Assembly (NCBI GenBank): GCA_029251085.1
Contig: JAQXDZ010000066.1
Coordinates: 24,096-88,095 of the forward strand
Origin: Mariniblastus sp.
Lineage (GTDB): Bacteria > Planctomycetota > Planctomycetia > Pirellulales > Pirellulaceae
DNA: 64,000 nucleotides
Direction of reading: 5' to 3'
Shown: piece by piece, positions 1,158-43,020 of the stretch
Layout of the letters: each line of letters begins with the position of its first letter
Position numbering within the stretch: the stretch's first letter is position 1
The notes under the pieces: generated by a model
What the model was told of the DNA's origin: nothing
Databases searched by the model: none
The model's input: only the letters and a program-made list of their open reading frames with translations
Position numbers and translations under genes: made by a program

Positions 1158-2129
1158 CTATGCCGTCATGCGTTCAATTAAAACCGGAATCGAGACACGG
1201 TAAACCACTAAAGCAATCAGCGAAATTGGGATTGCCGCTGCAGCAAAAGTTAGCCCGATGGCGAGGTGGTCTGTCGTTCCAATTAACAACCAGTCGCGTG
1301 CCAGTAATAACAAAGGACTTGCAGGGTTCACCCAATTTAACAAAGAACCGGGGAAGGTCGTTAACGGCACATAAATAATTGGGGTGATGATCATCCAAAA
1401 TGGAAGAACCATAGAAATGAATCGGCCAACATCTTGATAAAGCGAACCAATGGGCATGAGCAATAACCCCAATGATGCGCCGATTAAAACTAATCCCAAA
1501 ATTGCAATGGGAGCGTAAAGAACACTCGCATGCACCGGCACCTCGAATATCAGAAAAGCTGAAATCAAGAGCAGCAAACGAATTAACAGATCAAACAAAA
1601 CTTCACCGACACCAACGAGCAACAACGATTCACGGGGAAAATTAAGCTTGCTGATTAAATTACGATTTTTGTTGAACATCGCGAGGGGCATTTGAAAGGC
1701 ATCGATAAATGCTTGCCAAAGAATCATCCCCGTTAAAATATAGACCGTGCCATCGACTTGCGTATCGCCCATCGAAAACACATTCGCCTGTCTCAGGAAA
1801 ATCCAAATTGCTGTATTGGCAATCGGTGGAAGAAAGGCCCAAAACAAACCGAGCAGCGTCTGGCGATAGAGTCCCCGAATGTTTCTAAGAAATAACCGCC
1901 ACGCTAACTCCCGACCCAGCCAAAAATCGACGAAGATGTCCCGGATCAGCTGAGAGGGATTTTGGATGGAAGATTGCGCTGAATAGGTAGTAACGCTGGG
2001 CGAACCCTGACCGCTCGCTTCGGTTCCATCAGAACTGACATCCCGGGACGTCTCAGGAGTCCGGCGGGCCACTGCAATTGGTTGCTCACCTTTCCCGCTT
2101 GGTTTCGACTTTTCGAATTCGGTTTCCAT
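1158..2129 (-). CDS. ABC-2 type permease for polysaccharide export
   Basis: ORF 323 aa; multiple hydrophobic segments; ELAWRLFLRNIRGLYRQTLLGLFWAFLPP is typical of TagG/Wzm-type permeases. Confidence 0.85.
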   Translation of the reverse strand: METEFEKSKPSGKGEQPIAVARRTPETSRDVSSDGTEASGQGSPSVTTYSAQSSIQNPSQLIRDIFVDFWLGRELAWRLFLRNIRGLYRQTLLGLFWAFLPPIANTAIWIFLRQANVFSMGDTQVDGTVYILTGMILWQAFIDAFQMPLAMFNKNRNLISKLNFPRESLLLVGVGEVLFDLLIRLLLLISAFLIFEVPVHASVLYAPIAILGLVLIGASLGLLLMPIGSLYQDVGRFISMVLPFWMIITPIIYVPLTTFPGSLLNWVNPASPLLLLARDWLLIGTTDHLAIGLTFAAAAIPISLIALVVYRVSIPVLIERMTA

Positions 2130-2135
2130 ATCAAC

Positions 2136-3182
2136 TCAAGCTAAACCGACACGAATTAAATCATGCAAGTGAACGACCCCGACAAGTTTGCCGGAATCAC
2201 AGACAGGTAAAATTGTAATCTCGTGACTTTCCATGATTCGCAACGCTTCCGCAGCGAGGGCTGTGCGATCAATCGTCCTCGGAGCCTTCGACATACGCTC
2301 TGACACCGATTCGTTCCAAAAGTTCCCTAGCGAATCGGCAGAACTCGAATCAATTAATCTTCTCAAATCACCATCAGTGACGATCCCCACAATTGCCTCA
2401 GATTCGTCCACGACGAACACGGCTCCTAATCCCTTTTCCGAAATAATCCCAACAGCATCCCGCAGTGTTGCCTCACTGCTGGAAACAATGGGAATCGTAG
2501 AATCAACATGCATGATGTCGGAAACTTTGATCAGTAATTTCCCGCCCAGATTGCCGGCCGGATGAAAAATAGCAAACTGTTCCTTCGTAAACCCCCGGCG
2601 ATCCATCAATGTAATGGCAAGCGCATCACACATCGCCATCGCAACAATTGTACTACTCGTCGGCGCTAGCGACACTGAATCAGCCTCTGCCTCAACTCCC
2701 GTATCGATGACAACATGGCAACGCTTAGCAAGCGTGCTACGAAGGTTGCCCGTCAATCCAATCATGGGAATCCCAAGTCGCACCATATGCGGTAGTAGGC
2801 GGATGACCTCGCGAGTTTCACCACTATTGGAGAGAGCAAGAAACACATCATTTTCCGTGACGACTCCAAGATCTCCATGGACCGCTTCGCCAGGATGAAG
2901 GAAAACCGCAGGGGTACCCGTGCTACAGAACGTCGCTGCCGCCTTCCTTGCAATGCACCCCATCTTGCCCATGCCTGATACGATTACTCGCCCCCGACAT
3001 TGAAACAGGGATTCAACGCCTTCCTCAATGGAAGTATTAACTCGTTCTGCCGTTCGTAAGATTGCAGTCGACTCTTTTTTTAATACTTCAACGACCCGAC
3101 GGACCGCGTCTGAATTGGCAACAGAAGACTCTGTTTCTTGGGTTAGCTGTTTGTCTTGGGTTAACTGTTTGTCTTGGGTCAT
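2136..3182 (-). CDS. kdsD: KpsF/GutQ-type arabinose-5-phosphate isomerase (SIS + two CBS domains)
   Basis: ORF 348 aa; SIS motif VIVSGMGKMGCIARKAAATFCSTGTPAVFLHPGEAVHGDLG and C-terminal CBS repeats. Confidence 0.9.
   Translation of the reverse strand: MTQDKQLTQDKQLTQETESSVANSDAVRRVVEVLKKESTAILRTAERVNTSIEEGVESLFQCRGRVIVSGMGKMGCIARKAAATFCSTGTPAVFLHPGEAVHGDLGVVTENDVFLALSNSGETREVIRLLPHMVRLGIPMIGLTGNLRSTLAKRCHVVIDTGVEAEADSVSLAPTSSTIVAMAMCDALAITLMDRRGFTKEQFAIFHPAGNLGGKLLIKVSDIMHVDSTIPIVSSSEATLRDAVGIISEKGLGAVFVVDESEAIVGIVTDGDLRRLIDSSSADSLGNFWNESVSERMSKAPRTIDRTALAAEALRIMESHEITILPVCDSGKLVGVVHLHDLIRVGLA
3133..3182 (-). repeat. 18-nt in-frame tandem repeat encoding TQDKQL at the KpsF N-terminus
   Basis: Protein starts MTQDKQLTQDKQLTQE; DNA unit ttgtcttgggttaactgt is repeated. 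Confidence 0.8.
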
Positions 3183-3425
3183 GGGTTCGCTCCGTCCGAC
3201 ATTGTATCATCTCGACAACAAGATGACTCACATGCAATTACCGCCTTCGCAAATTACCAATTTTAACACTTTCAGAGCAAACCCTAAGTTGCTGGCTCCT
3301 GTCCCACCTCAATCTTTCGAACAGAATTACACAATTTTCAGCGGCTTTTGATTCCGCCTGCCTTTCTTAGGGAGCTGCCTTTTGGCACATTTCCAACTCA
3401 AAAAACGAACAAGTAAAATAAAAAA

Positions 3426-27636: not shown

Positions 27637-27665
27637 ACGGCACTCCCCACGTTGGGCAGTGCCGT
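27637..27665 (-). terminator. Rho-independent terminator ending the MoxR/Bat operon
   Basis: ACGGCACT...AGTGCCGT 8-bp stem with inner CCC/GGG pairs, followed on the minus strand by TTTTTTATT. Confidence 0.82.
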
Positions 27666-27695
27666 AATACTTGTCTTAGCTAATTAAAATGGCAG

Positions 27696-27962
27696 TTACT
27701 TTTCACCTTCGCCATTCGCAGCCTCGGTGTATCGTTCGACAATGTCGCGATACCTCGCGGGCAACTTTTCTTTTACAGCGTTGTTGGCAGGATCTCGACT
27801 ACGATCTCTCAAGCGACTCCAGGGACTTGCTGGGGAATCGTCGTACGATTTCTTCACAACCTGTCCGTTGGGATTACTACTTGTTCCACCTTTTTGGCTC
27901 TTCTTACTTTGACTTGGCTTTGACTGAGCTTGCTTCTGACCAGAAGCTTTTTTACTCGCCTC
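27696..27962 (-). other. In-frame 88-codon extension downstream of the TGA of the upstream TPR-like gene (candidate recoded C-terminus, or separate mini-ORF)
   Basis: Manual translation: EASKKASGQKQAQSKPSQSKKSQKGGTSSNPNGQVVKKSYDDSPASPWSRLRDRSRDPANNAVKEKLPARYRDIVERYTEAANGEGEK then TAA; no ATG; same frame as 27963..28805. Confidence 0.75.
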
Positions 27963-28805
27963 TCAGGTACCGCCTTTTTTACAGTTTGAACTGCACTCCT
28001 TTTTCTCCTCCTCTTTGATGAGTTTCGTCAGCATACTGACGATCTTATCCTGCTCATCTTGCGTGACTTCATCCGTCTCCACTAATTCCAAACGCCGTCG
28101 CGAATAATCCATTCTCTGGTAAACATCATCTAATTTACCTTTCTGAATCGATTGAATTTGCTGAACCTGCCGCCACGCACTCACCCGCAGTCTCTCCGGA
28201 GCGTTCGGATTGAATTGAAGGAATCGCATCAACGATTCAACCGCTTCCTGATTCTTCAAAAGCCCCGCCTGGGCAACACCCAAGTAATACTGTGCGCTGC
28301 CCTGATGTACGGTGAAACCGCTGAGATCACCAACCAAATTTTCCAAACATGGCATGGCATCCTCAAAACGCTCTTCGTTCATCAGCGTTCTTGCGAGATA
28401 AAAACTTGCGTCACCGGCGAGATACTTATCGTCAGACTGCTGCAACGGCGAAAGAAGTTCAATGGCTTGCTCGTACCCACCACTTGTATCCGATGCTGCA
28501 ATCGCATCTGAATATTTGGGGTACATCAAAATCAGTGACTCAGTGAGAGCATCAGAAAAATCACTGTCCGCCCCGGAAACTGTTTTTTGTATCGCTGTCT
28601 TTTGTGACGCGGGAACAGTTTCCAGTGAATTGATGTGCGCTAGAAAAGATGCTTTGACCTTTTCGGAATGTTGATCGTTTGCTTCTACCGAATTCGTCAC
28701 TCCAACGAACATAACACCCATCGCCAACAGGCCGAGTGCGGTCTGGAATAATCGTCCAATTTTCATTTCAATCACCTCGTTAATTTCGCAAGCGATAATA
28801 CGCAA
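27963..28805 (-). CDS. Secreted TPR-like/tetratricopeptide protein (last gene of the MoxR/Bat operon), ends at in-frame TGA
   Basis: ORF 280 aa with signal sequence; YLAGDASFYLARTLMNEERFEDAMPCLENL and AQYYLGVAQAGLLKNQEAVESLMRFLQFNP TPR-like units. Confidence 0.8.
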   Translation of the reverse strand: MRIIACEINEVIEMKIGRLFQTALGLLAMGVMFVGVTNSVEANDQHSEKVKASFLAHINSLETVPASQKTAIQKTVSGADSDFSDALTESLILMYPKYSDAIAASDTSGGYEQAIELLSPLQQSDDKYLAGDASFYLARTLMNEERFEDAMPCLENLVGDLSGFTVHQGSAQYYLGVAQAGLLKNQEAVESLMRFLQFNPNAPERLRVSAWRQVQQIQSIQKGKLDDVYQRMDYSRRRLELVETDEVTQDEQDKIVSMLTKLIKEEEKKECSSNCKKGGT

Positions 28806-28950: not shown

Positions 28951-30942
28951 TCACTGATCGTTCTCTTTTTCCATGATCCGTTCGGTCATTTCCAGCAATT
29001 TAGCCTGCAATTCAGCTGCATTCATCGCCTCCTGGTCCAACAACTTCTCCAAATCCTCTTGTCCACGTAACTGCTCAACCTTTTTTGTCCGCCGGTTGAG
29101 CCTCATCTGTTGAATCCTTAACACTTTTAGCTCCGCGGATTTTTTCAACAGGGGTTGGTCACCTCCGCCGCCACCGCCACCTCCGCCGCCTCCGCCACCG
29201 CCGCCTTCGTTTTGAGCTTCTTTCAAAGCATCAATGAGATCAGCAATGGTCGATTCGATTTCCTTTTGCAACAACTGAGTAAGTTGCCCCGTGCGTTCTA
29301 AAGCCAATAACTCAGAAGCCCGATCCAAATCGACTTTTAAATCTTGCACAATTTCAGGAAACACAATACTCGTACCATCCTCCAAAAGCAGGTCGTAAGC
29401 TTGCTGACCCAACTCGCTAATTTCAGACTCTTCATTCGAGATTCGCAACATTAGCAATTGATCTCGACGGCCTAGATTTTTCAAGTTAGTTAACTTGTCA
29501 TCCAACTCAACCGTCATCACCCCCGCAATGACCTGCCGGTCATACATTTCTTTAAACCGCGCCTCTAAACGAGCAAGTTTTTCCTGACGAGTTTCCTCCC
29601 GCAATTGCTTCAGACGATCCTCAATTTCCTCCAGAGCTTCTTCCATCTGTTTCTCTGCTTGCTTCTGTTTTTTCTGAGCTTCCTTTGGATCTTGGTCATC
29701 CAAGTCTCCCGACGCACCTTTCATTGACTCACCGGCCTGATCCATTTTACTTTGACCGGGCTGTTTTTGCTTACCAGAATCAGACTGCTCGCCGGGCTCT
29801 TCTTCTGGCTTGGGAGCCTTTTTCATCTCTTCAAGAATGTCCATAGTTTTGTCACGATTACGACGCTGCTCTTCGGCCATTTGCTGCAACGCTTCGGGCG
29901 GTAATGTCTCAATTCGACGTTTCTCTTTTTTGATTTCGGAAAGGGCCTGATTCATATCAGCTAACGCTTTCTGCTCCTCCGCCTTAGCATCGTCTGGCTT
30001 GCCAGTTCCTAATTTTTCCTCGGCTTTTTTCTGGTGTTCAATCGCCTTATCCAGTGCCTTCTGCCCGGGTTGAGCAGGTTCTGACTGGCCCCCCGGCTTA
30101 CCGTCACTCGGCTTACCGTCACTCGGCTTACCATCACTCGGCTTACCATCACTCGGCTTACCATCACTCGGCTTACCATCGTTTGCTGATTCAGGGTCTT
30201 CCGAGCCAGAAATTTCCTTTTTCAGTGATTCTGTCTGTTTTCGAATTTCGAATTGCTCATCGGCAACGCCATCCAGCGCTCGCAAACCCGCGTTTGATTT
30301 CGCATCTGTGTTTTCGATAACCTCTGTTTGCTTGCCGATCAGATTTTCCAATTTTTTAATCTGGGCTTCCAAGTTCTTAATCGTCTTATCTTTTTCAGCA
30401 ATCTTTTCAGTATCTTTGGTTTGACTTTTCTGCTCTTGCAGTCGCTCTTGAATTTGCTGTTTCCAGCGTTCGAGCATTTTCTCTTGATCCTTCTTTGATG
30501 CTTTTTGATCTTTTTGTTGCGTAAGCAGTCGAATCAAGGCCTCCAAATTCTGAATTACTTCGTCTAATAACTGATCGGCTTCCTGATACTTTTCGGTATC
30601 GAGAAGCGAACTTATCTGAGCCATTTTTTTCGTGATTAGTCGTTCTTTCGATTGCTGATAAGCAGCAACGAGCAGTTTTGCGCGTTCGGGTTCCTTTTCC
30701 CGAAGCTTCTCAGCGATGACCGTCAGCTTTGTCTCCAATTCGGACATTTTCCGTTCAACGAGACGCTGACGAACCCCTAGTTCCGTTTTTAAATCGGAGC
30801 CCTTAGTGTCATCTTGCGCTACCAGCGCGCCTAGGTTTGCTATCGAAACGAGGGCGGCGATGATTGCCACTCTTAAAAAACTTAATCGGTTTTCTACTAC
30901 CATTCCCTTGCTCCTCTTTGCCCAACCTGACCCACAGTCCAT
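28951..30942 (-). CDS. Secreted coiled-coil protein rich in Lys/Glu/Gln, with SDGKP repeat and poly-Gly tract
   Basis: ORF 663 aa; signal-like N-terminus; long charged helical segments. Confidence 0.75.
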   Translation of the reverse strand: MDCGSGWAKRSKGMVVENRLSFLRVAIIAALVSIANLGALVAQDDTKGSDLKTELGVRQRLVERKMSELETKLTVIAEKLREKEPERAKLLVAAYQQSKERLITKKMAQISSLLDTEKYQEADQLLDEVIQNLEALIRLLTQQKDQKASKKDQEKMLERWKQQIQERLQEQKSQTKDTEKIAEKDKTIKNLEAQIKKLENLIGKQTEVIENTDAKSNAGLRALDGVADEQFEIRKQTESLKKEISGSEDPESANDGKPSDGKPSDGKPSDGKPSDGKPSDGKPGGQSEPAQPGQKALDKAIEHQKKAEEKLGTGKPDDAKAEEQKALADMNQALSEIKKEKRRIETLPPEALQQMAEEQRRNRDKTMDILEEMKKAPKPEEEPGEQSDSGKQKQPGQSKMDQAGESMKGASGDLDDQDPKEAQKKQKQAEKQMEEALEEIEDRLKQLREETRQEKLARLEARFKEMYDRQVIAGVMTVELDDKLTNLKNLGRRDQLLMLRISNEESEISELGQQAYDLLLEDGTSIVFPEIVQDLKVDLDRASELLALERTGQLTQLLQKEIESTIADLIDALKEAQNEGGGGGGGGGGGGGGGDQPLLKKSAELKVLRIQQMRLNRRTKKVEQLRGQEDLEKLLDQEAMNAAELQAKLLEMTERIMEKENDQ
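29161..29208. repeat. Trinucleotide-rich tract encoding poly-Gly (about 15 residues)
   Basis: (ccg/cca/cct)n run; protein ...[25 protein letters not shown]. Confidence 0.9.
30101..30175. repeat. 15-bp tandem repeat, five units (cc[g/a]tcactcggctta), encoding SDGKP
   Basis: Two ccgtcactcggctta units followed by three ccatcactcggctta units. Confidence 0.95.
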
Positions 30943-30969: not shown

Positions 30970-33216
30970 TTATTTATCAAAAATATCGTCGTCATCACCA
31001 TCGAATATCCCATCGTCGGGATTTATACGATCTTTGATACCGCCTTTGATCTCTGTCGTTTTGCTTTTCACTTCGAGGAAATCATTAATAATTTCCTGGA
31101 AGCTTTCTGAGTCCGCCATCGCACTCAGAATTCTTTTCATTTCCTCAAGTATCGCGAGTTGCAGTTCGACCGACTGATCCACAATCTCTTCTAACTCAGC
31201 CTGATTCCGAACTGCTCGTCGAGCATTATCAAATTGCCGACTGGCTAAAGAAATCATTTCAGAATCAAGCTGCCGAATTGGCCCGATAATCCGTTCATCA
31301 AATCTCGTTTCAATTCGTTGTTCGGGAGCCAGTTGATTTTCAGCTTCATCCAATCGATTATTTTTCACTTCAACCAAAAACTCTTCGAACCGATTCGCCA
31401 CGCGATCCAATACCGTGCCAACTCCTTTTTGTTTCCGCACCAGCGCAATCAGTGCGGCTTCGCGTTTCGAATCGAATTCTTCCTGACTCACACTGTCGGT
31501 TCGCGTCCTTGCCGCGATCGCTTGAATCTCAGTCATCAAAGCTAACTGAACCTGATAGGCTTGATCATCAAATGCTTTTCGTTGCTCGACTTCCCGCCTC
31601 AACAAATCTGCTCGCAACTCTTCATCCGTCACGACTCTCAACAAAAATTCCTGAGAACGACCGACATTTGGTTTCCCCGGGTAATTATCTTTGGCAGTCA
31701 CCGAAAATCGAAAGCTAGTACCGGGAGATAGGCCCAGCGGCTCGAGATCCAATTCAGCAAAATCTTTGATTTGCCGCACCGGTAGACCGTCTTCCCCGGG
31801 CCGTGGTTCCGCGAACACCAACTCCCGCTGGCCAGTTTTCTCGTCATTATCACCCGTCTTCCAAGTCGCATCGAAAGCCAATTGTGTTAGTCCATAGGAA
31901 TCAACGGCCTGGTACGAAGTTGGCAAGTTCGCTCTGGCCGACACCAACCCGCTAATCCCAAGTAAGCTCGCTCTAATTTTTGGCGAATCATCGTCCTTAA
32001 TTGTTACCCGAAACTTAGACCGGCGAGCTCCTTTCATTCCGGAGCTGTCAACCAATTCGAACTCATATTCACCGCCAACCAATTCCTCGCCCTCTCCCGG
32101 AATAGTTAAGCTGAATTCTGTATCATTCTCGCCAGACTGCATCGCATAAACTTTTTCGTCGATCTTCAGGTTCGCTGCAGACAGAGATTTATTCGTCTTG
32201 ATTCCAATCTCCAACCGACTGCCAACTAAAACCGAATGCGGCCCCGCTCCCTGCAGTTCCTTCCGGAGCACTCCCGTATAGGCTGGCATCAGCACATCTA
32301 AGTTCAGCTGAATTACACTGGGCGGCTCAACTAGTTTTACATCGACCCACGAAGTCACATCATCGCCACCGGATGCTCGGAACCGAAACGGAGACGAAAC
32401 GTTATGAAACACAAAAACGTGCTCGCGTCCATCTAACTTCCCCGTCGGTTTCATTTGGTGGAACGTTTTCCCACCTTGATGGCTAATCTCCAAAGAGACC
32501 GACACGTCTTTCTCAAGACTATCTTCGCTCACGCGAACCAACTGGCGATGATCCCCACCACGAGGCAAAATCAATTCACCGTCGACCGCTCCGACAATTT
32601 CGAGATAGGTCGCTTGTGGCCATTGATCTTCGAGTAACAAGATGTTTCGATTAAACCAAGTCCTCAAAAAATCTGTCTGAGCGACTCCAATGCCAACACC
32701 CGCAGCCATTCCAATACCGGCGATCAACAACAACCAGTTTTGAAAATGCCGGCTAAGATCGAGAGCCTTGGAAAAATCAACTGCCTTCGATTTTTCGATC
32801 CCTTGCTCAATCGTCGCCGCAGCCAACTCCGCAGACGTCCCCCACTGTTTCCATTCTTCTTCTCGAGATAACTGAACACTGGAAAGTAAACTTTCCTTCA
32901 ACTCAGGGTTTTTACTTTCAACTTCATAAATCAAGGCATCGTCACTGAGTCGAGACAATAATGGCTTGAGCACCCGAACGCCAAAATAGACCACGGCGGC
33001 GATGGCCATTGCAATCAGCATCACCACCCGCTGAGCAAAGTCCATTTTAAACAGCCGATCCAACGCTACATCACAGGCCAGAACCGCCAAGATAGCAATC
33101 AACCAGCGCCCCAACCCATGGATTAGGATCCAACGCGTTAATTTACTTCGCATGCGAAGCAGTTTTTCCATGACCAGTTTGGGCATGTTTTTAGAGGTTG
33201 TCGTGACCGATGCCAT
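30970..33216 (-). CDS. Membrane protein, DUF4175-like, of the MoxR/Bat operon
   Basis: ORF 748 aa; N-terminal TM segments; large extracytoplasmic and coiled-coil region; operon position. Confidence 0.72.
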   Translation of the reverse strand: MASVTTTSKNMPKLVMEKLLRMRSKLTRWILIHGLGRWLIAILAVLACDVALDRLFKMDFAQRVVMLIAMAIAAVVYFGVRVLKPLLSRLSDDALIYEVESKNPELKESLLSSVQLSREEEWKQWGTSAELAAATIEQGIEKSKAVDFSKALDLSRHFQNWLLLIAGIGMAAGVGIGVAQTDFLRTWFNRNILLLEDQWPQATYLEIVGAVDGELILPRGGDHRQLVRVSEDSLEKDVSVSLEISHQGGKTFHQMKPTGKLDGREHVFVFHNVSSPFRFRASGGDDVTSWVDVKLVEPPSVIQLNLDVLMPAYTGVLRKELQGAGPHSVLVGSRLEIGIKTNKSLSAANLKIDEKVYAMQSGENDTEFSLTIPGEGEELVGGEYEFELVDSSGMKGARRSKFRVTIKDDDSPKIRASLLGISGLVSARANLPTSYQAVDSYGLTQLAFDATWKTGDNDEKTGQRELVFAEPRPGEDGLPVRQIKDFAELDLEPLGLSPGTSFRFSVTAKDNYPGKPNVGRSQEFLLRVVTDEELRADLLRREVEQRKAFDDQAYQVQLALMTEIQAIAARTRTDSVSQEEFDSKREAALIALVRKQKGVGTVLDRVANRFEEFLVEVKNNRLDEAENQLAPEQRIETRFDERIIGPIRQLDSEMISLASRQFDNARRAVRNQAELEEIVDQSVELQLAILEEMKRILSAMADSESFQEIINDFLEVKSKTTEIKGGIKDRINPDDGIFDGDDDDIFDK

Positions 33217-33308: not shown

Positions 33309-35900
33309 CTACAACAACTTGTACCACTTACGTAAAATCCACTCGATGGACAGCAACGCAACTGGCAACCCATAAAACAACCACCGCAGATACGGATTAA
33401 CATCCCAAAGTGGCTTCGGCGGACTGTTGAATTCAGCCCGAGTCACCAACGTTGGCAATACATCCGGCACACTGGCAAGTTGCTCCAGCCGAAAATACTT
33501 ACCGCCTGACTGGTCAGCTATTTCTGTTAATAATTTTTCGTTCAACCAGTAGGCACCCGATTCGGCACTCGGAGGAACCACACGAAACGCAATTGGATCG
33601 ATCAACTTGCCCTCGGCATCACCTGCACCAAATGAAACCGTTCCTTCAAAATTGCCAACTCGCTGAGCGACAAAAGTACCTTCATAGCTACCCTCTTGAT
33701 TGGGGAGCATTTTCAACTCCACAGTCTGGGTTCGCCCATCCTCGGCTCGCACGATTGCTTTTTGAATTGGGGCGGTCGATGGCTTGAATTGCTCGTCCAG
33801 CACCCGGGCTACCAATAACACCCGATCTCCAAGTTCAAACTCAGATTTCTCCGTATCGATAAACCCCCTCCGTGATCCTTGCAGGGAACGAGTCTCTACG
33901 AGATACCGAACAACCTGGATCCAAAACCTATCAAAATACTGCGCCTGCACACCAACCGGTCGCCACCGAAACGACTCCTGAAAACCAAGGTATAACACGG
34001 ATCCGGCACCGTATCGGCCTGCGACCATCAATGGCTGGTTCCCTTCGGCATTGACCTGATCCCCGCTTTCCAACAACACTCGCGCTGTCGGCTTGGCAGC
34101 AATCGCAGGGAAACTCCATAACACACTGGGAATCAAATCCCATATCTTGGCGTTGTCCCCCGGGTCACTGCGGAAACTCATGACCGGGTGGTCAAGGTTG
34201 TGATTGACCACAAGCATTTGCCCGGACCGCATCTCTTTGGCAGATGCAAGCGCCTCCACCGTATCGATAAACTCAGTGTCTCCAAACCTTACAGGGAGTA
34301 ACTCGCGAATCGATTTCAACCGATTCATCGTGACGAATTCACTTGTGTGCTGAGGGCCCGCCATAAACAAAACCCCGCCTGCTTTAAACTTGCAAAAGTC
34401 CTTCAGCAGATCCATCCAATTTTCATCGAACTCCTCTGGATTTGGGTCAAACATCATCACGACGTTGTATGCTCCCAATTCATCAATCGTCCGCGGCAAT
34501 CGCGAAATTGGCGCATTGCCCTCTTGAGGTCGCGTTTCATCCATCGTCTGAAGCCAACAGCTTAGCGAAATGGTCTGATCCCGCTGCAGTAACTTGTAAA
34601 CATGCTGGTAATCCCAACTAGCCTCACCCGCCACCAACAAAACCTTTACCTTCTCATCAACGACTTCCATCTCCGAGGTCACCCGCGCGTTGTCGGCGAC
34701 TTCAGTTTCATCTTCCAACGCTTTGACTTGTACCGTAAATACATACTTACCAGACCGGTTCAGAATATGATCAAAATCAACTCGAATTCGCCCACCGTTT
34801 TCAGGAATGGGGACGTTTTTCGATTTTACTTTTTCTGGCAATCCCGGTTTGCCAGTCCGTGAATCAACTTGCTGCTGAATCAATTCGACTTCAATTTGAG
34901 CCGGCATACCTTCATCGCCAACCTGCGAGGTCTGCAGTACAGCTTCTATCTCAAAAGGCTCGTCAGGATAGGCTCGATCACGCACGTAAACTTCGGTGAC
35001 GGCTATGTTTTTTGGTGGATTCGGATCGCCGACACCAACGACAAAGATCGGCACACCTTGCTCCGCCGCTTTCTGAGCAATTTCAACTGGATCTTCACTT
35101 CCATTATGCTGCCCATCACTAATCAAAAGAATTGCAGACAATCGGCTCGCATCATCGAGCGACTCACGCAACGCTTGCCAAATATCCGTCCCCAAGCCGC
35201 TGGCTTCGAGATCTGGAATCGTTTTGCGGATTAGCCCCTCGGCTTCTTGGTCTTCCGGATCCGCCGGCGTGTCTGAGGCCTCTGGTTCTGAATCTTCGGT
35301 CTGCTTTTTCACATTCGCCGGTATCACTGCGATGGGCACATTGCCATCAGAAAAATTGACAATCCGAAGTGCTCCCTTGTCTTTCAACTCTTCCAACAAT
35401 GCTGGATTCTTTGCGAACGCTTGATTAACGAGCGCGGATCGCTTTACCTGCCCATCACCAATCGCGGCAACAGACAAACCGGTAAGCTCTGCCAATTTTT
35501 TCTGTTGATCTTCACTGCGATAACTGTCTCCGCGGTCGAATGAAAGAGAGCTATCTCGCAACATTGCGATCGTTGGCTTGATTTCATTTACTTGCTGGTA
35601 AAACACGGAGGGTTTCAAGAACATCATGATCAGCAACAGCAGTACGGCCAACCGCAGGGCGCCCATCGCCAACTTGATGGGCATTGGGCAGGTATTGATC
35701 TCTCGGCGGTACATCCAAAAAACACCAAACACCACCGCCGCTAATATCGCAAGCAGAACAAAGACACCCCAGGACTCTGGCATGTTCGACCATTGCAATC
35801 GGGGCGTGCCAGCGCGATCGGGGTCGGCGCCAACCAACCACTCCAACAATCTACTTTCGGCAATAAAATTCAACGTTTTCTCAATTCTTACAATGATCAA
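33309..35900 (-). CDS. VWA/glutamine-amidotransferase-like membrane protein of the Bat operon
   Basis: ORF 863 aa; SAILLISDGQHNGSEDPVEIAQKAAEQGVPIFVVGVGD (VWA-like); C-terminal TM. Confidence 0.78.
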   Translation of the reverse strand: MIIVRIEKTLNFIAESRLLEWLVGADPDRAGTPRLQWSNMPESWGVFVLLAILAAVVFGVFWMYRREINTCPMPIKLAMGALRLAVLLLLIMMFLKPSVFYQQVNEIKPTIAMLRDSSLSFDRGDSYRSEDQQKKLAELTGLSVAAIGDGQVKRSALVNQAFAKNPALLEELKDKGALRIVNFSDGNVPIAVIPANVKKQTEDSEPEASDTPADPEDQEAEGLIRKTIPDLEASGLGTDIWQALRESLDDASRLSAILLISDGQHNGSEDPVEIAQKAAEQGVPIFVVGVGDPNPPKNIAVTEVYVRDRAYPDEPFEIEAVLQTSQVGDEGMPAQIEVELIQQQVDSRTGKPGLPEKVKSKNVPIPENGGRIRVDFDHILNRSGKYVFTVQVKALEDETEVADNARVTSEMEVVDEKVKVLLVAGEASWDYQHVYKLLQRDQTISLSCWLQTMDETRPQEGNAPISRLPRTIDELGAYNVVMMFDPNPEEFDENWMDLLKDFCKFKAGGVLFMAGPQHTSEFVTMNRLKSIRELLPVRFGDTEFIDTVEALASAKEMRSGQMLVVNHNLDHPVMSFRSDPGDNAKIWDLIPSVLWSFPAIAAKPTARVLLESGDQVNAEGNQPLMVAGRYGAGSVLYLGFQESFRWRPVGVQAQYFDRFWIQVVRYLVETRSLQGSRRGFIDTEKSEFELGDRVLLVARVLDEQFKPSTAPIQKAIVRAEDGRTQTVELKMLPNQEGSYEGTFVAQRVGNFEGTVSFGAGDAEGKLIDPIAFRVVPPSAESGAYWLNEKLLTEIADQSGGKYFRLEQLASVPDVLPTLVTRAEFNSPPKPLWDVNPYLRWLFYGLPVALLSIEWILRKWYKLL

Positions 35901-35983: not shown

Positions 35984-38398
35984 CTATTCGTCAACCCGTT
36001 TTGAATCCAACATATAAAGGCGATTTGCACCGTGAACCCAAAATCTCTCGCCATCGCTATATAAATTACCGACCGGCGCATTCGTTCCTAAATCGACATG
36101 CACTTGCTTCAGTACCTCCGCGCGGCCATTTTTCCCCTTTAGTGACAATTGATAAATGCGATCCTCGACAGGTAAGTAAATACCTTTGGGGGTCACAACT
36201 CCACGTCCCAATGATTGACGTCCGTCAAACATCTGTTCCGTACCCCAGATCATCCGCCCCTGTCCCTTGAGATCGTAAGCCACAACAGTCTCAAATCCAC
36301 CGGCATATAACACGTCTTCGTAGACGCCAATAATATAGTCGACCTTAAATCCGACCGGGCTCATTTCCGTTCGCCAAATCAGTTCTCCCGTATTCCGGTC
36401 GAAAGCTTCAATTGAGTCAGTGTCCGAACTAAAGCAGACCATTTGTTTTCCATATGGAATAACAATGTCACTCGACCACCCATCAAAATTCAGCCGATTT
36501 ACTGTCCAACCACTTCGACGCCCAAAATTATCCGCTTGCCCAACCCTCCGATAACGCTTGGCAAATCGAACCGTCCCCGTCGCGGGGTCCAGCACAAACA
36601 CAACCCCCATCCCGCAACTGACAAATAGGTCACTTCCTTCAAGAGAAAGCTCAATCGCAGACCATGGCACCGAACCAGTTTCGGGCTCGTCGCACAAAAA
36701 CGACTGCCAAACAGTTTTACCCTCACGTTTGGGATCAAGTGCATAAATTGAAATCGCACCACCACTGTTAACGGGCACAATCACAAGGTCCCCAAACGCA
36801 ACAGGCGCGGCCATGAAACCGCCGCTTTCGAGCCATTCCGATTCGTCCGTTTCGCCGTTAAAGGCGACCGGTTCTTCCTCCGATGCTTCACGCGGCAATC
36901 TCCATAAAACACGACCAGACTCCGCGTCGTAGGCGGTCAGGAAATTCTCCCTCGTCCTCCGAAAGTTTGCATTCCACTGAGGCGCGACTTTAGGTTGCTT
37001 ATGAATATTGGAATCATCCCATGATTTACCTTCGATCGAATACGCAATGCCTTGGCAAATCGACATCTGTTGAAAAACTCGGTCGCCGAATAAGTTAATC
37101 TCTACTGCCTTCTCCGGGAACTTCGACACACCACTTGCCTGCCCAGTCACCCGACCGCCCCAATTGCGGCGAATCGTAGACATCATCATGGTTGCATCAT
37201 CTATTTGAAACGCATTCTTCCATACACTCCGCCAAGCGATCGCGGCATCCGCAGACTCCACCAAGCTATCGGCTTTGGAAAGCTCTTCAATCTTCTTGCG
37301 ATCCCAAACAGCAAGATCTGAACCGGTCTTAAAAAACAATCGATCGCCATCGATTAACAACTCGCCAGCGGGCCTCCAACTCTTGTTTCTCCAAGTATCA
37401 ATCAACCGGGTTTCCATCGCATCAAGTGTCTCGCCAACGCTCTCTCCGGAAGCTTTCCGACCGGTCAACATATTCCCCTGGACATCAGCGCTGCGGTTGT
37501 AACGTTCCTTCGGTTGGAAATAAAACTGCCAACTCGCCTCTAAGTCACCCTCCATCATCTCGTCGGGCACTGCTTGCATGACACCGTAACGATGGGAATT
37601 CCCAAGCGGCATTTGCCAATCCAGATTCACTTCGTCTCGTTCGTTAGAAACGGTCAATTCCTCGAGCGAGCGACTGACCAAAACTGCTTGATCTGAGTTA
37701 CGATCAATCGCCAACGCCTCTGCAATCGCGACCTTCGCCGCAGGCATATCCCCCAAGAACGCCTGACAAAGTGCAATTTTTGCATAGACCTCCTCCATCG
37801 GAACGGAAGGATCCGGATACTGCGTAGCGATTTTTTCAAACATCCGCCGAGCGCCGATGAAATCAAATTGATCGAGATAGATGCTGCCGAGATTAAACGC
37901 CGCTTCATCGCCAAGAGAACTAATAAAATAGTTTCGAACGACACTATTCAAAGCCGTAACATCTGCAGCGTCCACCGCTTCCGCCAAAATTTCTTTTGCG
38001 GCGGCATCGGCAATCACACGATAGGCCAACAATCCATCAGCCGGGAGCTCAGCGAGAATCGCCTCAACCTGTTCGACAAGCGAGTAATAGATTTGGCCAT
38101 CACTCGAAAACAATGCGTCGCCACTTCGGTTTAAGACGGCCTGCCAAAGCGTGCAGGCGACTCGGTACTGACCGTCATTTCGCATCCGCTCGGCTTTTTC
38201 AAGCACGTCTTCAAGTTCTGGATCTGTCTTTAACACAGCTCCCGCTTCAACCGCCTCTCCTTGCTCCGCCATTACCCCGGGCCGCCCGAAAGCGAGCTGC
38301 TTGGCAATACAATTCTCAGGAACTACCAATGCAACCAGCGACCACACACCAATGATCATGGCCACCGAAAGGGTTCTATTAATGAGCAAATTCATCAT
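35984..38398 (-). CDS. PQQ-binding-like beta-propeller repeat protein with TPR-like N-terminus
   Basis: Repeats such as FDRNTGELIWRTEMSPVGF and AYDAESGRVLWRLPRE; signal peptide. Confidence 0.85.
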   Translation of the reverse strand: MMNLLINRTLSVAMIIGVWSLVALVVPENCIAKQLAFGRPGVMAEQGEAVEAGAVLKTDPELEDVLEKAERMRNDGQYRVACTLWQAVLNRSGDALFSSDGQIYYSLVEQVEAILAELPADGLLAYRVIADAAAKEILAEAVDAADVTALNSVVRNYFISSLGDEAAFNLGSIYLDQFDFIGARRMFEKIATQYPDPSVPMEEVYAKIALCQAFLGDMPAAKVAIAEALAIDRNSDQAVLVSRSLEELTVSNERDEVNLDWQMPLGNSHRYGVMQAVPDEMMEGDLEASWQFYFQPKERYNRSADVQGNMLTGRKASGESVGETLDAMETRLIDTWRNKSWRPAGELLIDGDRLFFKTGSDLAVWDRKKIEELSKADSLVESADAAIAWRSVWKNAFQIDDATMMMSTIRRNWGGRVTGQASGVSKFPEKAVEINLFGDRVFQQMSICQGIAYSIEGKSWDDSNIHKQPKVAPQWNANFRRTRENFLTAYDAESGRVLWRLPREASEEEPVAFNGETDESEWLESGGFMAAPVAFGDLVIVPVNSGGAISIYALDPKREGKTVWQSFLCDEPETGSVPWSAIELSLEGSDLFVSCGMGVVFVLDPATGTVRFAKRYRRVGQADNFGRRSGWTVNRLNFDGWSSDIVIPYGKQMVCFSSDTDSIEAFDRNTGELIWRTEMSPVGFKVDYIIGVYEDVLYAGGFETVVAYDLKGQGRMIWGTEQMFDGRQSLGRGVVTPKGIYLPVEDRIYQLSLKGKNGRAEVLKQVHVDLGTNAPVGNLYSDGERFWVHGANRLYMLDSKRVDE

Positions 38399-38428: not shown

Positions 38429-40759
38429 CTATCGTTTCTTGCCCCAATACCAACCTAAAACCTGCTCAAGTACGAGCACTGCAAATAACAACAAAAGGAT
38501 TTGCAGCCAAATTTCAGTTTCTCCACCCGAAACTTGCTGACCGACCAATCCACCCGCTGCAACCATTGTTACCTTTTCGCCCAAAAAGTCACCTTCCAGA
38601 GCACTCGCTGGAATACGTTTCAACTGGCTTTCCCGCGGGTCAACATTGGCCGCAAACAACACCATTTCCTCTTCACCGGTATGGCGACTCAAACCCAATT
38701 CGTAAAACCCCCGCCGCTGGACACCATCGAAATTCACTCGATATAAAACGCTTGCCCCGTCATCTGCCGCGTCGCCATCCTCAGAACTGGAATTCGGCTC
38801 AGAGTCCGACTTAACATTCGGTTTGGCGATCGATTCCACTTTCTCATTTTGGGGATCCCGCAGGCTGACTCGGCTATCGTAAGCTGACATGTCAACCGGA
38901 TAGGAAACCTCACCTCCCAACTCAACGACGCCCTCCTCCGCCCCCGAACCCACCAAGTAATCGACCAGGTCGATCATGACCGGAGGAAAGGTTGGGCTAC
39001 TTGGCCACATTGTCCAGTCGCCATCGCCTGGGATTGTAAACACAATGACATTCCCCGCGCCGTAACTTAAATCAACCATCGCAGGAGAATTATCTTTATC
39101 GCTCAGCCGGAGCGGAACAGACAGTGTCTTCCCAATCAAATCCGAATTCAGATTGGAAGTCCACCAACTAAACACATCGACATTGGACAAACTCGAGGCA
39201 TCGCTCTCCACGACCACCTTCAGCGCCGGGTGGATCTGTGGATCAATTTCGAAATTGACCCACTTTGACATGGTTGGATCCCCCATCATGCGATCCAAAG
39301 CCAGCGGCGAAAGACCCTCGCCACTTTGATAGAACGTATCGTTGAAGGTACTGGCACGAACTCGATTCCCAGGCATGAAAACAAGAGCACCACCATCTTC
39401 AACCCACTGCTCAAGAGACTTCACGCGATCGGTTGAAGCTTCGTCGACGTTGCAGAGAAAGATAACTTCAAAATCCGAAAGCGATTCCGACTCCAATTCG
39501 CTGGCGGTCACCACTTTCATGTTCATCCCGGTACCGGCCACCTGAAGACTTCGCAAATAATGCGTTTCACTTCGCTCCGAAGCAGACGATGGATCTCCAT
39601 CCACCAATAGAACAGAAATCCCATCTTTCACGCGCGAAGCATAATAGCCAACACTGTCCTCTAGCAACTGGTCTGCTGCCAGCCCCTCTTCTCCGAGTGA
39701 TTGGCGATCAATCTCTGCCTTCACGCGATAACTCTTAAACCGCGGCTTGACCTGACCACCCTCCAACATTTCTGAATCGTCACTCTCTTCCGAAGGGAAC
39801 ACATAGCGAAATGCAAGCTCGGTCTCCTGCCCTGGAGCAAGCGAGGGAATCACTTCATAGTCCGGCTGGCCGTCATCTATCTGCAGCAAGACCCGAACTT
39901 GATTGACTGTCTGCGTCCCATAATTTGCAACCGAAACATTAAATTGAATCACCTTATCCGCGACTTGAAGGTTCCCCGGACGCACGCCGGTAATCGCAAG
40001 GTTTTGATCATTCGCCCCCCCAACATCGACGAGAAAACAATCGATCGCTTGTTCAGAAATATCCGTCAACAATCGGTTAGGTGCCGAATCAGTATCGGCA
40101 TTGAGTGCATTAAACCAATCCCGCTCACGCATATCAGAAAATGCGTAAACAATCCGCCCGCCCGCTTCCCGCTGCCCACTGACGTATCGCTTGAGTTCAA
40201 GCAAAGACACCGTGTAATCCGCACTCGAATCGGCACACTCTAGATCATCGATCGCCTCAACGAGCGAGGGCAGTGTACTCTTCGTCAACGGCTCATTAGC
40301 CAAGAGCGGTTGCTCGGGATTACTGGTCAACATCAGCGTCAACCAATCTTCCGTGCGATCCGATTCAGCCAGCTCACCGAGCATCTCTTTAATCTGACGC
40401 TTCGTCACATCAAACGCTGGCTCCGCATCCAACAAAACTCTCTGACTTAGCGAATCGTCAACCAGAATCACCCGCTCAATCTTCTGCGCTTGCTGCAGAA
40501 CACGAGTGACACTCGAAGGGAGGAAGGGGCGAGAAAACATCAACGCCACCAATAGCATCGCAAGACAACGCAACATCAATAAAATAAAGTTTTCAAGCTG
40601 TACGCGTCGTCGGTTTTTCTTGTCAGCTTCGAACAAAAAATCCATCGCTGCCCACTGGACGACCTTAAATCGCCGCTTATTAAGCAGATGAATAATGATG
40701 GGGGACGCGATCGCGAGACCACCCAACAACATCCATGGATTTAAAAACCAACTTAACAT
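38429..40759 (-). CDS. BatA-domain membrane protein
   Basis: N-terminus MLSWFLNPWMLLGGLAIASPIIIHLLNKRRFKVVQWAAMDFLFEADKKNRRRVQLENFILLMLRCLAM is the BatA signature. Confidence 0.9.
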   Translation of the reverse strand: MLSWFLNPWMLLGGLAIASPIIIHLLNKRRFKVVQWAAMDFLFEADKKNRRRVQLENFILLMLRCLAMLLVALMFSRPFLPSSVTRVLQQAQKIERVILVDDSLSQRVLLDAEPAFDVTKRQIKEMLGELAESDRTEDWLTLMLTSNPEQPLLANEPLTKSTLPSLVEAIDDLECADSSADYTVSLLELKRYVSGQREAGGRIVYAFSDMRERDWFNALNADTDSAPNRLLTDISEQAIDCFLVDVGGANDQNLAITGVRPGNLQVADKVIQFNVSVANYGTQTVNQVRVLLQIDDGQPDYEVIPSLAPGQETELAFRYVFPSEESDDSEMLEGGQVKPRFKSYRVKAEIDRQSLGEEGLAADQLLEDSVGYYASRVKDGISVLLVDGDPSSASERSETHYLRSLQVAGTGMNMKVVTASELESESLSDFEVIFLCNVDEASTDRVKSLEQWVEDGGALVFMPGNRVRASTFNDTFYQSGEGLSPLALDRMMGDPTMSKWVNFEIDPQIHPALKVVVESDASSLSNVDVFSWWTSNLNSDLIGKTLSVPLRLSDKDNSPAMVDLSYGAGNVIVFTIPGDGDWTMWPSSPTFPPVMIDLVDYLVGSGAEEGVVELGGEVSYPVDMSAYDSRVSLRDPQNEKVESIAKPNVKSDSEPNSSSEDGDAADDGASVLYRVNFDGVQRRGFYELGLSRHTGEEEMVLFAANVDPRESQLKRIPASALEGDFLGEKVTMVAAGGLVGQQVSGGETEIWLQILLLLFAVLVLEQVLGWYWGKKR

Positions 40760-40869: not shown

Positions 40870-41787
40870 TTAGAGATTCTTCCTTCGTGACTTTGCCCGG
40901 AAATTGAGATAGCTCGAGAGCACCCCATCCAAAGGCTTGGAGGTGTCAAGCAAAACGTGATCAACCCCCGCCGTCGCACAAACCTTCTTGACTCGTGTCA
41001 TATAACGATCCACCGCTTCCATATACGACTTCCGCAACGAACGTGGTTCAGCATGCAATTCTCCAGCAGACTCCATTCCCTGAAAAAGAGTATTGTCTTG
41101 AAACGGAAACTCCAACTCGTCGTGATGCATGACATGAAAAACAACGACCTCGTGACGTCGCAAGCGAAACTGCGCTAACGCTTTTGCCAGCTCCTCCGGG
41201 TCGACGAACAAGTCGGAAAACAAAGCAATGACACCGCGTTTCCGAATCTGTGACCCCAAGGCAATAAACGGATCACTGACATCCGTAGTACTTGCCGGTT
41301 CAGTCTGCTCAAGTTCATGAAGCAGCATTTTCAAATGGGACGGATGAGACGATGATTTCAAATTCTTATCAATTTTATCACTGTACAAAACCAAACCAAC
41401 AGAATCCTGCTGCTGCTGCATCAAGTACCCTAAACTCGCAGCCGCCGTTGCAGCATAATCAAACTTACTCCAACCCGTTTCCTCGCCGTAGCGCATTGAC
41501 TTACTGGAATCGACGATGAGGTGACACTTCAGATTGGTCTCCTCCTCATATTCCTTAATGTACAGGCGGTCAGTTTTAGACCAGACTTTCCAGTCGATAT
41601 GCCGCAAATCGTCGCCCGGCGAATACTCACGATGAGCAGCGAATTCGATTGCGAATCCATTAAACGGACTACGATGCTGTCCAGATATAAAGCCCTCAAC
41701 AACCAACCGGGCGCGAACCTCTAGACGTTTGATTTTATCGAGTGTCTTCGGATCCAGATATTTGTTTGCTGGACTGTCAGTCGCCAT
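40870..41787 (-). CDS. DUF58 domain-containing protein
   Basis: GFISGQHRSPFNGFAIEFAAHREYSPGDDLRHIDWKVWSKTDRLYIKEYEEETN. Confidence 0.93.
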   Translation of the reverse strand: MATDSPANKYLDPKTLDKIKRLEVRARLVVEGFISGQHRSPFNGFAIEFAAHREYSPGDDLRHIDWKVWSKTDRLYIKEYEEETNLKCHLIVDSSKSMRYGEETGWSKFDYAATAAASLGYLMQQQQDSVGLVLYSDKIDKNLKSSSHPSHLKMLLHELEQTEPASTTDVSDPFIALGSQIRKRGVIALFSDLFVDPEELAKALAQFRLRRHEVVVFHVMHHDELEFPFQDNTLFQGMESAGELHAEPRSLRKSYMEAVDRYMTRVKKVCATAGVDHVLLDTSKPLDGVLSSYLNFRAKSRRKNL

Positions 41788-41871: not shown

Positions 41872-43020
41872 TCAACTAAACGCTTTTACAAGCTCAGGCG
41901 AGATTTGATCTCCTTCACTGCGCTCCGGAATTTCATCGAGAAGACGGTCAATAATGTCATCCGACGTCACGCCCGTTGAATCCGCGTTGAAATTTGTAAT
42001 TACTCGATGCCGCAGAACCGGTTTGGCTACCGCTCGCAGATCCTCGGTAGTTGCGTAACTTCTCCCCTCAAGTACCGCCCTGGCTTTCGCACCCAAAAGA
42101 AGGTTCTGAACACCGCGCGGACCCGCACCCCACGAAATTGCCTCTTTCACAAACTCTGGACAGTCATCCTCAAGCACTCTCGTCGCCCGGACAATCCGCA
42201 GGGCGAAGTGAATCAAATGAGGGGCAACTGGAACGCGACGAACCAGTTGCTGTAATCGCAGAATATCCTCACCGGACAAAACCTGCTCCACGTTGTGATT
42301 TACATCCGCAGTTGTCGTCGCAGCAATCTGAAACTCTTCTTCATAGCTCGGATACTTCACAAATATCTTGAACATGAATCGATCTTGCTGAGCCTCTGGA
42401 AGTGTATAAGTTCCTTCCTGCTCGATTGGGTTTTGCGTCGCAAGCACAAAGAACGGCGCCGGCAATTGATTTCTCTCACCACCGATCGTCACTTGTTTCT
42501 CCTGCATCGCCTCAAGCAACGCAGCCTGAGTTTTAGGCGGGGTTCGATTAATCTCATCCGCCAGCACGATGTTGGCAAACACAGGACCCTTCAGGAATTT
42601 AAACTCGCGCTTGCCAGATGCCTTGTCCTCCTGGATGACTTCCGTTCCTACAATATCACTCGGCATCAAGTCAGGCGTGAACTGAATACGGTTAAAGTCA
42701 AGATTTAGCGTTTCTGCCAATGTGCTGACCATGAGTGTCTTCGCCAAACCCGGCACACCTTCCAGCAAACAATGGCCTTGCGCAAAAATCGCGATCATCA
42801 ATTGCTCGATCACTTCGTTTTGACCAACAATGACTTTACCCAACTGCTCGCGAACCGCTCGATAAGATTCACTCAGTTTTTCCAGTGCCTTAATATCGTC
42901 GCCACTCAGTTCAGCTTGGCCACCAGAAACACGATCGTTCATACTATTTTCCTGACTCGGTAATAAAATTTTAAAAAACGGAAGTCCATTTCGCGGAAGC
43001 CCCACCCCTCTCAGCCACAA
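41872..43020 (-). CDS. MoxR-family AAA+ ATPase
   Basis: [11 protein letters not shown] Walker [48 protein letters not shown]. Confidence 0.95.

Follow-up and report, generated by a model that had tools for sequence, protein, structure and literature searches.

The bacterial SECIS element is a 5- or 6-bp hairpin located shortly after the UGA codon, with an invariant G in its loop (PMC4607533), and the distance between the UGA and the apical loop is 16 to 37 nt (PMC10778597). FdhA-type selenoproteins, which depend on SelB and SECIS, combine a TGA codon, a GGUC-loop hairpin about 18 to 21 nt downstream, SelA, SelB, SelC, and SelD, and homologs with Cys, and all of these features recur for the gene described here from Mariniblastus. 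This gene differs from the FdhA type in that it encodes a TPR protein, not an enzyme whose active site is known, and in that the predicted selenocysteine (Sec) lies in a disordered linker. The DUF466/KCU-star proteins are likewise selenoproteins outside the classical redox folds that were found through SECIS elements and have a Cys-Sec motif and Cys homologs, but their Sec is the last residue, whereas the Mariniblastus protein has a conserved domain after Sec (PMC4607533, PMC9312934).

A study of Leptospira Bat proteins described VWA and TPR domains and suggested a periplasmic complex, while deletion of the bat genes of Leptospira biflexa produced no oxidative phenotype and the link between Bat and oxygen is disputed (PMC3557215). 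We treat a connection of Bat to oxygen as suggestive only. Like the TPR genes of Bat operons, the Mariniblastus TPR gene closes a MoxR-DUF58-BatA-VWA cluster, but its product matched no Bat model in Pfam or NCBIfam and no family at all in NCBIfam or PHROGs, and it carries a putative Sec and a planctomycete-type tail. A genome paper describes Sec machinery and other selenoproteins in planctomycetes (PMC4807772). No TPR or Bat selenoprotein was found in the prokaryotic selenoproteome literature searched, a set that leaves aside the supplementary candidates of that paper, and two reviews of prokaryotic selenoproteomes and the deep-Sep paper make no mention of planctomycetes. Most likely, the proteins described below form a previously unrecognized selenoprotein family tied to the MoxR/Bat operon.

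Gene cluster and reading frame

The window (the whole 64,000-nt stretch of Mariniblastus DNA that was analyzed) contains a MoxR-DUF58-BatA-VWA cluster that ends with the TPR gene (Table 1); genes for an NPCBM protein and trypsin-like proteases come after it. The domains of the neighboring genes agree with the preliminary description, which had taken the TPR gene to be the last of a MoxR/Bat cluster, and by position the gene fits a Bat operon member of the BatE-like TPR kind. The gene order from VWA to NPCBM is identical in G044 (L143) and G756 (L191), which belong to two other families.

TABLE 1 Features of the TPR gene and the MoxR/Bat cluster, in window coordinates
Feature	Position	Strand	Basis or remark
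MoxR AAA+ ATPase, first cluster gene	41872..43020	-	PF07726, E 6.6e-65
DUF58 protein	40870..41787	-	PF01882, E 3.5e-45
BatA-domain protein	38429..40759	-	PF07584, E 9.4e-18
PQQ/BamB-like repeat protein, in cluster	35984..38398	-	PF13360, E 3.8e-14
VWA protein	33309..35900	-	PF00092 over cutoff; L143 and L191 have counterparts in this position
748-residue cluster protein	30970..33216	-	No Pfam family over cutoff; counterpart likewise placed in L143
663-residue coiled, low-complexity protein, directly upstream of the TPR gene	28951..30942	-	Ordinary TGA stop
Whole gene, TPR protein with one putative Sec codon	27696..28766	-	Homologs continuous across the site
N-terminal portion with a signal-like stretch, the helical TPR solenoid, and a Cys pair ahead of Sec	27966..28766	-	AlphaFold2 helices 26-262; weak Pfam TPR matches
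In-frame TGA, putative Sec codon	27963..27965	-	Context ...CSSNCKKGGT-U-EASKKASGQK...; TGA conservation and Cys in relatives
Post-TGA codons: disordered K/S/Q/G linker, then conserved tail	27699..27962	-	Tail dN/dS 0.00-0.014; linker pLDDT <50
SECIS-like hairpin GCTTCT-GGTC-AGAAGC	27932..27947	-	6-bp stem, GGTC loop 27941-27938, 21 nt past TGA
Terminator-like hairpin past the tail	27637..27665	-	-21.9 kcal/mol, then TTTTTT

The TPR-like ORF ends with ...KKECSSNCKKGGT before a minus-strand TGA (27965-27963), which interrupts the linker of the TPR protein; a conserved C-terminal tail, SPWSRLRDRSRDPANNAVKEKLPARYRDIVERY, lies beyond it in the same frame. The TGA, the 88 open codons that follow, the closing TAA (27698-27696), and the tail are all as first reported, and the extension indeed contains no ATG. 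The ORF had been started at TTG 28805, but the likely start codon is ATG 28766-28764, which has GAGGTG upstream at 28778-28773. From this ATG to the TAA, the gene encodes 356 residues if the TGA is read through, with the TGA as residue 268. W, R, P, Y, and E residues of the tail are invariant in the homolog alignment, and the tail motif named in the preliminary description is real and kept across homologs. The chance of 88 open codons was computed at 1.5% for random sequence, within the earlier estimate of roughly 1 to 2%. Taken by itself, the open frame is weak evidence, and the case is decided by conservation. The strong terminator proposed beyond the TAA was recovered as a terminator-like hairpin followed by six T residues; it is absent from the list produced by a consensus terminator scan, probably because of a mismatch in its stem.

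Conservation of the TGA and the tail

Among 60 relatives searched, eight congeners with 63 to 99% identity over the first part of the protein had the same TGA and in-frame tail, and G004 (59% identity) was the ninth TGA-bearing congener. When the whole protein was used as the query, one internal TGA was found in 10 of 28 Mariniblastus genomes, these 10 forming one clade; the other orthologs have no internal stop and a fused tail. The order-wide search added G062, a sister of G044, so that two genomes of another family carry the TGA, and the phylum-wide search added 11 further planctomycete genomes with a TGA in the same linker. The linker reads CPxCGKGG-U-SGC in G535, G565, G697, G756, and G762, GGS-U in G434, GGT-U in G462, ACPG-U in G730, and T-U-PSC in G736; a TGA is also present in the linker of G562, and two are present in that of G631. 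The total is 23 genomes from at least eight families, and the linker stop is always TGA, with TAA or TAG in none of the 23. The f88 matches score weakly (about 40 to 50 bits), yet the pattern of helix, linker, and tail is common to them, and in G756 (L191) the gene sits between the same neighbors as in the window. Compared with near relatives (dS about 1), the dN/dS of the tail is below that of the TPR part (Table 1).

The homolog alignment that the preliminary description had proposed as a check revealed that the tail is fused in all homologs lacking the TGA and that Cys occupies the site in some relatives. ECSTU of G004 and GCGTU of G044 align with ECSSC, ECSNC, and ECSGSCKNC of relatives, i.e., CxxU against CxxC. 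For the longer Mariniblastus motif, C-x3-C-x5-U, alignment to the CxxC forms is not unique and the correspondence is less certain. Cys is absent at the site in about half of the orthologs. A tree built from the TPR part, which left out the deeper lineages from the phylum-wide search, groups the Mariniblastus Sec sequences in one clade (support 99/98) and the G044-type sequences in a second.

In the linker of L193 (G631:C403), the two in-frame TGAs lie five codons apart (GGG-U-SGGG-U-SGKG), which may indicate a protein with two Sec residues. A TGA initially counted in G364 (L079) was rejected, as it appears to be the terminal stop of that gene and not a Sec codon.

SECIS-like hairpin and Sec machinery

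The sequence after the Mariniblastus TGA, GAGGCGAGTAAAAAA-GCTTCT-GGTC-AGAAGC, forms a hairpin that has both published properties of bacterial SECIS elements, a G in the loop and a spacing within 16 to 37 nt. Within Mariniblastus, there are no synonymous differences in the 7-codon windows +5 to +7 after the TGA (261, 225, and 180 comparisons), the lowest of 326 such windows in a gene with a mean of 0.46. The stem in G044 and its sister is GGCTCC-GGTC-GGGGCC, in which all six pairs hold although three of the six are altered on both sides. G434, from a third lineage, has an 8-bp stem, GCCAGGGC-GGTC-GCCCTGGC, with the loop likewise at 21 nt. No clean perfect-stem hairpin was found in G535, G565, and G730, where it is weak or absent.

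When the folding energy of the 32-nt region was compared with that of synonymous recodings, no significant difference emerged (P = 0.02 to 0.40), because linkers fold readily at random, and a positional GGTC-loop test was applied instead. This test took TGA triplets in the window and in related loci and looked for a stem of at least 6 pairs with the loop 16 to 24 nt from the TGA. By this criterion, which was chosen after the hairpin had been seen, a GGTC-loop hairpin follows 13 of 11,022 TGA triplets, 10 of which are the putative Sec codon of this TPR family. With the amino acid sequence held fixed, codon choice produced a comparable GGTC hairpin in 0.2 to 1.5% of recodings and other hairpin types in up to 12%. 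A scan of the 64-kb window at Rfam gathering thresholds gave no matches, as expected because Rfam covers bacterial SECIS elements poorly. On the plus strand, positions 27932 to 27947 with the adjoining TTTTTT score as an intrinsic terminator, a signal that probably arises only because the palindromic stem lies beside AAA AAA codons.

The hairpin of Escherichia coli fdhF also has a GGTC loop, 18 nt past its TGA. As a control within the genome that contains the window, the FdhA gene (formate dehydrogenase alpha subunit) is interrupted by a single in-frame TGA, with a hairpin whose GGTC lies 18 nt downstream, and the loop in the G004 copy of the TPR gene is at this same offset. The genome also encodes SelA (593 bits), SelB (367 bits), SelD (255 bits), and tRNA-Sec (67 bits), each over its curated cutoff; the tRNA is called tRNA-SeC by ARAGORN, and SelD, about 740 residues long, is a fusion protein that has Cys. 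One in-frame TGA each was observed in the SelD genes of G021, G024, and G044 (L135, L136, and L137). Of the TGA-bearing genomes from other orders, all but G762 (55% complete) have a SelB over the cutoff. G004 (80% complete) gave no matches to SelA, SelB, or tRNA-Sec despite the TGA in its FdhA, and a full tRNA-Sec match was not found in G021. G523 (L157), a single contig that is 99% complete, has no SelB over the cutoff and has a four-Cys linker, KKCGNCKGCKGSC, at the Sec site, which is consistent with an exchange between Sec and Cys. The homolog in G483 (L168) has a five-Cys linker, CKKCKGKGCKSC, that resembles a metal-binding motif, though SelB is present in this genome.

Explanations for the in-frame TGA

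Sec is very probably inserted at TGA 27965-27963, making this a selenoprotein gene, because the TGA and the frame are under purifying selection, a SECIS-like hairpin lies at the right distance, the genome has Sec machinery and a canonical Sec formate dehydrogenase, and close homologs have Cys at the site. Weighing against Sec are the position of the site in a poorly conserved, disordered linker, the many orthologs without Cys there, the rate at which codon choice by itself yields a comparable hairpin, the three genomes without a clean perfect stem, and the Sec machinery not found in G004. The preliminary description had listed Sec among several alternatives without choosing, and Sec is the one that the evidence supports; conservation across the 23 genomes excludes a nonsense mutation or an assembly error, and the fused tails exclude a mini-ORF.

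Readthrough of the TGA by a near-cognate tRNA, yielding a small amount of tail-bearing protein that lacks Sec, would have the tail translated and is enough to account for selection on it. We consider this improbable, since it leaves unexplained why a SECIS-type hairpin keeps its GGTC loop, why relatives have Cys at the site, why only TGA is used, and why the hairpin resembles that of FdhA in this genome. Less probable still is genuine termination at the TGA with the tail as a small gene of its own, for which an in-frame GTG (27857) could serve as the start: the tail is fused in every homolog lacking the TGA, the part of the linker ahead of the GTG retains its sequence, the stop is always TGA, and the extension offers no ATG. 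The genomes are metagenome assembled, and one of them by itself would be insufficient to rule out a nonsense mutation, a pseudogene, or an assembly error in the genome of the window; we regard these as having a negligible probability given that genomes assembled independently in several studies share this TGA and that the tail is under strong purifying selection. Equally negligible is the probability that the host reads TGA as a residue throughout, a code under which the frame would be open, because many other long ORFs of the window, among them the one immediately upstream, end in TGA with few open codons beyond.

Predicted structure and possible function

AlphaFold2 predicts a helical repeat over residues 26 to 262, mostly with pLDDT of about 90, and disorder over residues 263 to 333, which include Sec 268; the C-terminal helices are poorly placed. 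Pfam TPR matches are below gathering scores, and a Foldseek search gave no match with an E value of <0.001. The best matches in a PDB fold search were 2xev and 3ash, the TPR domains of YbgF/CpoB and MamA, which indicate a generic TPR only; weak HMM matches point to the same proteins, but the Mariniblastus protein scores far below their family cutoffs. The helical repeat and these fold matches together identify a TPR solenoid.

In the mechanism that we propose for Sec insertion, SelB and Sec-tRNA-Sec would bind the hairpin and place Sec at codon 268 to give the 356-residue protein. Because the N terminus, on inspection, looks like a signal peptide, the protein would be exported and Sec would be periplasmic. 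There, a TPR solenoid would be tied by a flexible linker with a Cys/Sec motif to the conserved C-terminal helical tail. Sec might pair with the nearby Cys in a reversible selenenylsulfide, or the two might bind a metal or the thiol of a partner, so as to serve the MoxR-Bat assembly as an accessory redox site. A redox role for the Cys/Sec site is possible, though we hold it with less than even confidence. Whatever the site does would be accessory, since many orthologs lack it, and the fold does not depend on it because the linker is poorly conserved and disordered and about half of the orthologs are without Cys.

Without Sec insertion, translation would terminate at the TGA and leave a tail-less protein. 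Since the tail, the most conserved part, lies behind the putative Sec codon, Sec supply might conceivably gate it. The forms of the Sec site across planctomycetes include ECSTU, GCGTU, GGTU, CPGU, TUPSC, and GGGUSGGGU (two TGAs). It is conceivable, but speculative and in our judgment unlikely, that Sec supply sets the balance between tail-bearing and tail-less TPR subunits for MoxR-Bat, that Sec sites in the linker were gained or kept many times, and that they constitute a phylum-wide selenium-dependent redox switch in this chaperone-like and little-understood system.

Gene callers will cut short members of this probable TPR selenoprotein family, and homology searches that need conserved flanks may overlook Sec sites which, like the one predicted here, lie in a fast-evolving disordered linker. 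The MoxR/Bat system gains a concrete candidate redox residue, for which the Sec, Cys, and Cys-less orthologs within one genus provide a natural comparison set.

A second TGA-interrupted frame in the window

Elsewhere on the minus strand of the window (1158-3209), a 356-codon ORF ends in a TGA (2138-2136) that is followed by 325 open codons in the same frame. Recoding was considered for this TGA and rejected, as the second gene has its own ATG just past the stop and the two constitute an ordinary gene pair. By inspection, they encode a KpsF/KdsD-like sugar-phosphate isomerase and an ABC-2 type permease.
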